Shown here in pieces: positions 12,211 to 31,698 of a DNA stretch of 44,145 nt. Every line of letters starts with the position of its first letter. Position 1 is the first letter of the stretch. Source of the DNA: Polaribacter sp. (GTDB lineage: Bacteria > Bacteroidota > Bacteroidia > Flavobacteriales > Flavobacteriaceae). Location of the stretch: assembly GCA_029245785.1 (NCBI GenBank), contig JAQWOR010000056.1, forward strand, positions 1-44,145. The letters are read 5' to 3'. The notes beneath the pieces were generated by a model that saw nothing but the letters and a program-made list of their open reading frames with translations, ran no database searches and was not told where the DNA came from. The position numbers and the translations under genes were made by a program.

Positions 12211-12221
12211 GTTCTTGTTTT

Positions 12222-12299
12222 CTGTCATTGCGAATGCAATGAAGCAATCTTACAATTAAGTTAAGAGATTACTTCGTCGTTTCACTTCTCGTAATGACG
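12222..12299. repeat. Palindromic interspersed repeat at the trpF-trpB junction
   Basis: A roughly 78-base element with imperfect inverted arms: it begins TGTCATTGCGAATGCAATGA on the plus strand and ends CTTCTCGTAATGACG. Termini of the type GTCATTGCGA/TCGTAATGAC are typical of dispersed palindromes in flavobacterial genomes. The element encodes the last nine residues and the stop of TrpF (12269-12298) and supplies the spurious upstream ATG of trpB (12228). It can form a hairpin between the two cistrons. Confidence 0.75.
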
Positions 12300-12949
12300 T
12301 TTCTTTTAAATTCTTTTAATTGCTCAAGGTTTTTCAACCCAGGTTTCAGTTCAAATTTACTGTTTACATCCAATGCATACATTGGTAAATCTGTTTTTGC
12401 TAACTTTTTTATTGCTGCTACTTGATCCAGTCCAATTCCCCCACTTAAAAAAAATGGTTTTGTTGAATTATAATTTTTTAAAACGTTCCAATCAAATGTG
12501 ATTCCGGTACCACCTCGTTCTTTTCCTTTGGTATCAAATAAAAAATAATGACACGCTTCCTCAAACTCTTTTGTACGTTCAAAATCAAAGGATTCATCTA
12601 CAGAAAATACTTTAATGATTTCAAGTTTATTCCGAACTTGATTCGGAATCTCATCATGAGAAACTGAAACAAGTTCAGCTTGACGCAATTCTTTGCAGAA
12701 TTGCACCGTTTCATCACCATGTAATTGTACTGCTTGTAACTTATAACTCTTAATTTTATCTACAACAACATCAATAGGCGCATTTACAAAGACACCCACT
12801 TTTTTGATCGATGTTGGCAATTCAGGAATGATTCCATCAAAATTTCTTTTTGACTTCTCATAGAAAATAAAGCCCAAATAATCGGGCTGCAATTCAGCAA
12901 CCGACTGAATATTTTCTAGGTATTTCATTCCACAAATTTTTAGTTTCAT
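12269..12949 (-). CDS. trpF: Phosphoribosylanthranilate isomerase with a repeat-derived insertion
   Basis: A 226-residue TIM barrel that converts N-(5-phosphoribosyl)anthranilate to CdRP. Catalytic Cys lies in KICGMKY (residues 4-10), catalytic Asp in ALDVNSKFE (192-200), and the phosphate site in LSGGIGL. Flavobacterial TrpF is usually near 205-210 residues. The excess comes from about 19 residues at 90-108 (QAELVSVSHDEIPNQVRNK), encoded by a palindromic repeat inserted in frame after helix alpha4 and before strand beta5 (IIKVFSV), plus a nine-residue tail (VITRSETTK) encoded by the trpF-trpB repeat. The insertion sits on the barrel face opposite the active site, so the enzyme is probably still active. 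Confidence 0.93.
   Translation of the reverse strand: MKLKICGMKYLENIQSVAELQPDYLGFIFYEKSKRNFDGIIPELPTSIKKVGVFVNAPIDVVVDKIKSYKLQAVQLHGDETVQFCKELRQAELVSVSHDEIPNQVRNKLEIIKVFSVDESFDFERTKEFEEACHYFLFDTKGKERGGTGITFDWNVLKNYNSTKPFFLSGGIGLDQVAAIKKLAKTDLPMYALDVNSKFELKPGLKNLEQLKEFKRNVITRSETTK
12625..12685. repeat. Palindromic repeat inserted in frame within trpF
   Basis: Three small palindromes lie in a row: ATTCCGAA-cttga-TTCGGAAT (12629-12649, perfect 8-bp arms), TCTCAT-c-ATGAGA (12649-12661, perfect) and CTGAA-acaag-TTCAG (12664-12678). This CCGAACTTGATTCGG plus CTGAAACAAGTTCAG composition resembles an intergenic repeat widely scattered in flavobacterial chromosomes. Here it is read as protein within trpF, with no stop and no frame change. 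Confidence 0.75.
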
Positions 12950-12962
12950 CTCCTTATTTTGT

Positions 12963-13083
12963 TGTCACTTCGAGTGGTTTTCGAATTTATGAGAAAATTG
13001 TATCAAGAAATCTCATTTGTTCTCGATACAAAATTCTTAAAAAAGAATTTTACCTGTCTACCGCAGGCAGGCTCGAACTGACA
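12963..13083. repeat. 121-base palindromic repeat between trpC and trpF
   Basis: The termini TGTCACTTCGAG (12963-12974) and CTCGAACTGACA (13072-13083) are inverted with one mismatch, and an inner imperfect inverted pair AAAATTGTATC / GATACAAAATTC lies between. This TGTCA(C/G)TTCGAG type of element is a familiar dispersed repeat in flavobacteria. It fills most of the 138-base gap between the trpC stop and the trpF start. Confidence 0.75.
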
Positions 13084-13087
13084 TTAA

Positions 13088-23637: not shown

Positions 23638-23734
23638 TCATTCTGGCGAAGGCAGGAATCTAAAGAAGTGTTTTTAGCCCAATCAAAATGGATTCCCGCT
23701 CCTGTCTGCCGACAAGCAGGTCCGCGAGAATGAC
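23638..23734. repeat. Palindromic interspersed repeat between convergent mdh and fhs
   Basis: About 97 bases with inverted ends (TCATTCTGGCGAAGG ... CCGCGAGAATGA) and inner GGAATC/GGATTCC parts. The right half (GGATTCCCGCTCCTGTCTGC and onward) is shared with the repeat at 31564-31674. The GTCATTC...GAATGAC type is a common flavobacterial dispersed palindrome. Confidence 0.75.
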
Positions 23735-23764
23735 AAACTACAGCACTATCTTCCTTCTTTAATC

Positions 23765-31563: not shown

Positions 31564-31674
31564 TGTCATTCTTACTAATTTATCTGCCGTGGCAGAGGTA
31601 GAGGCAAGAATCTATACAAGGTTTTACTTGGATCTCCGCTCCTGTCTACCAACAGGCAGATCTGCGAGAACAAT
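31564..31674. repeat. Palindromic interspersed repeat after obgE
   Basis: About 111 bases, beginning TGTCATTCTTACTAATTT and ending TCTGCGAGAACAA, with inner halves CCGTGGCAGAGG and CTCCGCTCCTGTCTACC. The right half matches the element at 23638-23734 at most positions. Like that one, it lies between convergent genes (obgE and the lipoprotein gene), where it may act as a bidirectional terminator. Confidence 0.7.
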
Positions 31675-31698
31675 AAACACTTTTAGTTTTACAGACCA

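Follow-up and report, generated by a model that had tools for sequence, protein, structure and literature searches.

The trpF gene of the Polaribacter DNA analysed here (the window, a stretch of 44,145 nucleotides) carries, in frame, a doublet of CGTC/TGTC-tagged palindromic repeats in the loop between helix α4 and strand β5 of the encoded phosphoribosylanthranilate isomerase. In other Flavobacteriaceae, this loop holds repeats from three or more families. It has quite probably been hit several separate times, with the landed copies being tolerated there and subsequently decaying.

The repeat doublet in trpF of the window

The original prediction described three palindromes (12629-12649, 12649-12661 and 12664-12678) inserted in frame into trpF. 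The palindromes are present at these positions, and the reading frame of trpF passes through them without a stop codon or frameshift (Table 1). Complementarity between the arms 12634-12654 and 12656-12676 amounts to 81%, and a 73-base stretch folded as RNA has a calculated energy of -22.6 kcal/mol (z -3.9), with none of 200 shuffled sequences equally stable.

Table 1 Repeat elements and the trpF gene in the window.
Feature	Positions	Strand	Basis
trpF, phosphoribosylanthranilate isomerase, 226 aa, insert-bearing	12269..12949	-	ORF; Pfam PRAI 8e-36; Foldseek
F1 repeat doublet, 61 bp, in-frame reading RQAELVSVSHDEIPNQVRNKL	12625..12685	-	ORF translation and pattern matches
First half-element, coding sense, with CGTC tag, stem of 8 bp (one G-T pair) and loop of five bases	12659..12685	-	YGTCATNCYGAANTNNTTTCRGNATCT, 2 mismatches
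Second half-element (mirror), decayed tag	12625..12651	+	YGTCATNCYGAANTNNTTTCRGNATCT, 4 mismatches
F3-type half-element, trpB-trpF junction	12223..12250	+	0 mismatches
Second arm of F3 doublet; gives final codons of trpF (RNVITRSETTK) and stop	12269..12305	-	F3 match at ORF position 650, 1 mismatch
trpF-trpC intergenic palindromic stretch, ends TGTCA..TGACA	12955..13085		RNA fold z -5.6, 0/200 shuffles equally stable

The insert lengthens the protein, as had been predicted, by about 13-17 residues rather than the approximately 19 initially claimed. Alignment with TrpF from T. maritima leaves a 17-residue gap at the insertion site, and the loop from LHG to KVF is formed by 40 residues in the window compared with 24-27 residues in the plain loops of relatives, a difference of 13-16. 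Related TrpF proteins vary in length at exactly the place of the insert. Four relatives with 87-90% sequence identity (P0002 to P0005; P0001 is the window's own sequence) retain the insert in an open frame, which makes an assembly slip unlikely, and P0006, with 79% identity, is without the repeat peptide. The enzyme had been called essential, which holds only for growth without tryptophan.

The structure of the window TrpF predicted by AlphaFold2 is a confident barrel (mean pLDDT 88, pTM 0.86), for which Foldseek returned T. maritima TrpF as the top match. Residues 96-106 have pLDDT values below 50 and are located between a helix formed by residues 82-95 and a strand formed by residues 110-117. 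They thus belong to the α4-β5 loop, in agreement with the predicted location of the insert. In TIM barrels, the active site and the loops leading from α-helices to β-strands are on opposite faces. In the model, the first residues of the insert seem to continue helix α4, and the remainder seems to form a disordered loop.

The end of the window trpF is also derived from a repeat. The region 12220-12305, which contains the F3 doublet, folds as RNA with z -2.7 (2 of 200 shuffles equally stable), and the F3 half-element has seven matches in the window's own genome at up to three mismatches, compared with none for the reversed-pattern control. The C-termini of TrpF proteins from many relatives resemble the F3-derived tail of the window (NVIT.., LSFRT).

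The strong folding of the palindrome within the gene, together with the presence of repeats in the gaps between trp genes of the window, would be expected if the palindrome were retained as an RNA element that tunes the stability of trp mRNA or the expression of trpF and trpB. In the pair L130/L138, synonymous differences affect 1 of 21 identical codons of the insert, compared with 59 of 179 elsewhere. However, the sum over nine sister pairs (21 of 107 in the insert versus 430 of 1573 in the rest) differs only weakly, so that synonymous constraint on the insert is suggestive in L130/L138 and not overall. Furthermore, many copies in the loop match one half-element only, and many relatives are unmatched. 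We therefore regard retention as an RNA element as improbable.

Concentration of repeats in one TrpF loop

A set of 131 distinct trpF reading frames, including that of the window, was scanned with patterns of three families, F1 (CTGAA type), F2 (TTCGAGC type) and F3 (TTACGAGG type). The scan gave 46 matches, with mirrored matches of one hairpin counted separately, and 44 of them fall in the α4-β5 loop, in 30 genes including the window's. The remaining two are at the C-terminus of trpF, where, as in the window, an F3 copy provides the final codons together with the stop. The minus-strand F3 match of L122 probably represents the F1 element a second time. The likeness of a hypervariable loop to the repeats could be due to chance, since the loop varies in length and sequence even in genes without a repeat match. 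However, codon shuffling resulted in 0.55 F1 matches per pass, and none of F2 or F3, compared with 33 F1 matches in the real genes, and 27-base matches with zero mismatches are present in L128, L130, L138, L145 and L045. Chance likeness is therefore exceedingly improbable as a general explanation.

No repeat was matched in 101 of the trpF genes, and in 22 of these the loop has 33-51 residues and belongs to no recognised family. Therefore, the length of the loop varies for further reasons besides the recognised repeats. These long loops may be worn repeats or another thing, and chance likeness may apply to some of them. The loops were extracted using a regular expression, which returned none for L115 and L117 and shortened a few others; the fragment L048 was excluded. 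Ten unmatched genes from the window's own genus (L093, L094, L097, L101, L102, L104, L108, L113, L116 and L118) share a 51-residue loop with an LAERRALFIEENK-like (LxERRALFIEENK-like) peptide.

The distribution of sites across the trp genes was determined for 138 loci, in which a gene present in two collections may count twice: the coding sequences of trpA, trpB, trpC, trpD and trpG contain no internal site in 419,565 bases and one at the edge of trpB; trpF contains 33 sites in 87,426 bases, plus eight overlapping its edges; and the sequence outside these trp genes contains 58 sites in 145,595 bases. Therefore, the density of sites in trpF equals that of sequence outside the trp genes.

The query TrpF holds F1 itself, and the top-ranked similarity sets therefore over-represent this family. 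In a flatter sample of 40 TrpF genes, spaced evenly through the similarity listing below the top 30, five genes have a match, compared with 0.3 expected from codon shuffles. The general frequency is thus nearer to one in eight than to the enriched 30 of 131. A loose and query-biased peptide tally of 120 listed homologues (60 with F1, 10 with F2, 3 with F3 and 47 with none) was left unused. Loci of Flavobacterium have the plain 27-residue loop in 49 of 55 cases and a repeat match in one.

The provisional pattern of a possible fourth family, F4, matches two loci outside trpF (L215 and L219, at up to three mismatches) and, with four mismatches, L109 alone of 137 trpF genes, which is a thin indication that F4 might also be present in the loop. 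In the trpF loop of L344 (G228), outside the five matched genes of the flatter sample, an F2-like repeat appears by eye to be interrupted by F4.

Probable separate landings, proposed decay and possible targeting

Mobile palindromes have likely landed in the TrpF loop several separate times, and their translation is predicted to give rise to dispensable loop residues. We calculated a tree from TrpF, with its loop and tail cut, and TrpB, using 97 of 137 TrpF rows (every fourth of most Flavobacterium, with duplicates merged). The four states F1, F2, F3 and none need 19 changes on this tree, a count that omits rows with long loops of unrecognised family and does not separate gain from loss. The AU test rejects a single clade for 13 strong F1 rows (p 2e-12) and for nine F2 rows (p 8e-143), both groups having been named after the loops had been seen. 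Copies of F2 in trpF occur in three reading phases, namely 0 in L314 (2 mismatches), 1 in L327 and 2 in L318 (both with 5 mismatches). The sister loci L038, which is empty, and L099, which contains F2, differ by a clean in-frame 27 nucleotides. Within one genus, the F1 repeat of G172 and the F3 repeat of G329 are located within two codons of each other. Doublets are intact or nearly intact in L145 (both halves with 0 mismatches) and L336 (1 and 0 mismatches). Several independent landings in the TrpF loop are well supported.

A single ancient insertion in the ancestor of most of these Flavobacteriaceae, followed by gene conversion or recombination with other copies, decay and loss, would account more simply for the observation that all plus-strand F1 matches in the loop are in phase 0. 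It is also consistent with the position of the tag, 13-17 codons past LHG in 27 genes, and with hybrid repeats, which combine an F2 start with an F1 end in L044 and with an F4 end in L109. Nevertheless, the three phases of F2 (two at five mismatches), the difference between L038 and L099, which reads as a simple gain, the plain loop prevailing in Flavobacterium and the rejection of both the F1 and F2 rows as clades argue against it, and we consider one insertion for the whole pattern unlikely. The constant phase of F1 leaves room for a single ancestral F1 in part of the tree, and some of the F1 pattern may go back to one old insertion that was kept, converted or lost. Twelve pairwise comparisons revealed no recognisable target-site duplication.

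Based on several separate landings, a sequence of events can be proposed. The repeats probably move as non-autonomous DNA elements, with landings all over the genome. Within trpF, the landings would survive only in the α4-β5 loop and at the C-terminal end. Survival in the loop is presumably enabled by its position opposite the active site and by the predicted disorder of the added residues. The landed copy would then decay by substitution and internal deletion, probably giving rise to lineage-specific loop lengths.

The loop and its operon could, beyond tolerance, be a true DNA target, with insertion directed into trp. F1 half-elements other than those in trpF are present within 2.5 kb of trpF in 5 of 56 cases in G321, 2 of 24 in G157, 1 of 19 in G172, 4 of 25 in G103 and 0 of 42 in G330, whereas a uniform spread would provide 0.03-0.07. 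Three of the 73 F1 matches of Kordia are within approximately 400 bases of trpF, and 10 of 27 tags directly follow CTAAAA, TTAAAA or TTGAAA. Around trpF, F1 is denser than a uniform spread would give in G321, G157, G172, G103 and G358, but not in G330. However, four of the five genomes were picked because their trpF carries F1, and several of the matches near trpF are the two halves of one doublet. The repeats may prefer operon gaps generally, the bases before the tags encode a common Glu-Leu-Lys helix end regardless, and the coding sequences of the other trp genes are devoid of internal sites. Directed insertion thus appears rather doubtful.

We see even chances that the TrpF loop is a standing landing pad, which three, perhaps four, palindrome families enter in frame repeatedly across the bacterial family, and that the surrounding trp operon draws the same repeats. 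If this is the case, selfish DNA provides a continuing supply of new sequence at a fixed place of a core enzyme, by means of structural tolerance or directed insertion. Since the loops range from empty and freshly filled to partly deleted and worn down, they make it possible to measure the rate of palindrome entry, the filtering by frame and structure, and the speed of decay.

Genomic copies and known repeat families

The repeat is interspersed in the genome, as expected from the original prediction. At up to three mismatches, the 27-base half-element matches the window's own genome at 15 places, compared with none for the reversed-pattern control. Judged by context, two of these places are deep within credible genes (trpF and the gene of an AMP-binding enzyme), one is in a reading frame of 62 residues, five overlap the ends of genes and seven are located between genes. 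The F1 half-element was also sought in 16 genome handles representing 15 distinct genomes, since G103 and G357 gave identical places, and has 1 to 73 matches in each, with every control at 0. The TrpF loop is plain in the three genomes with a single match, which are two of Flavobacterium and that of Tenacibaculum caenipelagi.

The context of F1 was determined in six genomes, covering 15 sites of the window's own genome, 19 of G172, 56 of G321, 22 of 24 of G157 (the other two are on contig C1), 42 of G330 and 44 of 73 of G358 (29 omitted). The majority of these copies are between genes, for example 43 of 56 in G321 and 39 of 42 in G330. This sample is not neutral: the window's own genome was the starting point, the presence of F1 in trpF was the reason for choosing G172, G321 and G157, and G330 and G358, whose trpF loops match F2, were included for their richness in F1. 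Other Pfam-matched genes contain F1 in frame, including those of PrmC-like, Methyltransf_30, NamZ, AMP-binding, class I/II aminotransferase, methylmalonyl-CoA mutase and TRCF proteins. Within this non-neutral sample of six genomes, trpF is the only Pfam-matched F1-bearing gene seen in more than one genus. Copies in Pfam-matched genes, gene starts apart, are read in frame +1 or -3. The idea that the repeat is open in one frame only was rejected, as, among 51 distinct half-elements, 50 are open in +1, 49 in +2 and 39 in -3. The loci with F1 in frame include L270 (G330), encoding TRCF, L205 (G172), encoding a PrmC-like methyltransferase, and L254 (G330), encoding a class I/II aminotransferase.

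CGTC-tagged REPs are described, in the portions of the article available to us, as having a CGTC or TGTC tag, an 8-9-bp stem beginning with AT, a 4-5-base loop, and a tail that in most but not all cases fits CCA (PMC3733652; Di Nocera, De Gregorio, Rocco 2013). According to the same portions, they form dimers, predominantly of the HH type, are mostly intergenic with some copies in genes, lack a dedicated transposase, and are present in five phyla including Bacteroidetes (PMC3733652). The first half of the window doublet begins with CGTC, the tag of its second half has decayed, and genomic copies begin with TGTC or CGTC. In the surveyed loci, the commonest tagged hairpins span 21 nucleotides and are of the ATGCTGAA/TTCAGCAT type and its variants (123 hairpins versus approximately 43 in shuffled controls). 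The stem of the second half, ATTCCGAA/TTCGGAAT, pairs at 8 of 8 positions, and that of the first half includes one G-T pair. The loop has five bases, such as CTTGT, which corresponds to the 21-nt span less two times eight, and doublets with outward tags are present. Judged by the tag, stem and loop of its sequence, the element is CGTC-REP-like, and it shares the AT start of the stem, the dimers of unlike halves and the mostly intergenic, partly in-gene location. In contrast, its tail reads CT or CTC, and the available portions of PMC3733652 give no account of recurrence at a single enzyme loop throughout a family.

The original prediction regarded the insertion as a parallel case to the protein-coding palindromic elements (RPE) of Rickettsia. 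The in-frame insertion of an interspersed palindrome is supported by the copies elsewhere and by the varying length of TrpF at this place, so that neither of the two observations named beforehand as refuting it was made. A repeat that is in frame in a protein gene and absent from the gene of a relative shows RPE-type behaviour, a functional likeness rather than a sequence test. The tie may be closer than a parallel, because RPE-4 and RPE-6 are assigned to the CGTC superfamily as CGTC-4 and CGTC-1 in the available portions of PMC3733652, an assignment taken from that article rather than from a comparison of the RPE sequences themselves; nor is the event isolated. Like the TrpF repeats, RPE-4 and RPE-6 are palindromes inside protein genes, but they are reported from many different genes, and RPE-1 is a longer element. 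In-frame REPs are therefore an already known kind. The new part is the recurrence of repeats of at least three families in one TrpF loop of Flavobacteriaceae: REPs inside genes have so far been described as scattered over many genes, whereas here many insertions of known source are at one site.

REPINs and GTAG REPs with RAYT resemble the present repeats as short palindromes that spread as non-autonomous units, as far as the available parts of PMC3116915 and PMC2817692 describe them, but they have a GTAG tag. The Coxiella MITEs (PMC5896051) and the coding palindromes of Nematomorpha mitochondria (PMC6649704) are, in the accessible text, also inverted repeats that touch protein-coding sequence, but they are other elements in other hosts. 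RepRanger (PMC12306157) provides REP counts for two Flavobacterium species, and its available text contains no passage on intragenic, translated or in-frame copies. Recurrent insertion into TrpF is not reported in titles and abstract openings, mostly from beyond the subscription literature, on flavobacterial or in-gene palindromes.

A RAYT as the mover of the repeats is not supported. The sole Y1 transposase (Y1_Tnp) match of the genome is L009 (G000 C71:245537-245755), no F1-F4 match is present within 3219 bases around it, and the tag of the repeats is not GTAG. Sister species with filled and empty loops are ready pairs for finding the enzyme and the junctions that move CGTC REPs. The Y1 transposase gene adjoins an inverted repeat of the GCACGAGCAAGATGCTCGCGCC type, which differs from F1-F4. 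The window also contains a different repeat in two 50-base copies, which are 80% alike (23689-23738 and 31629-31678).
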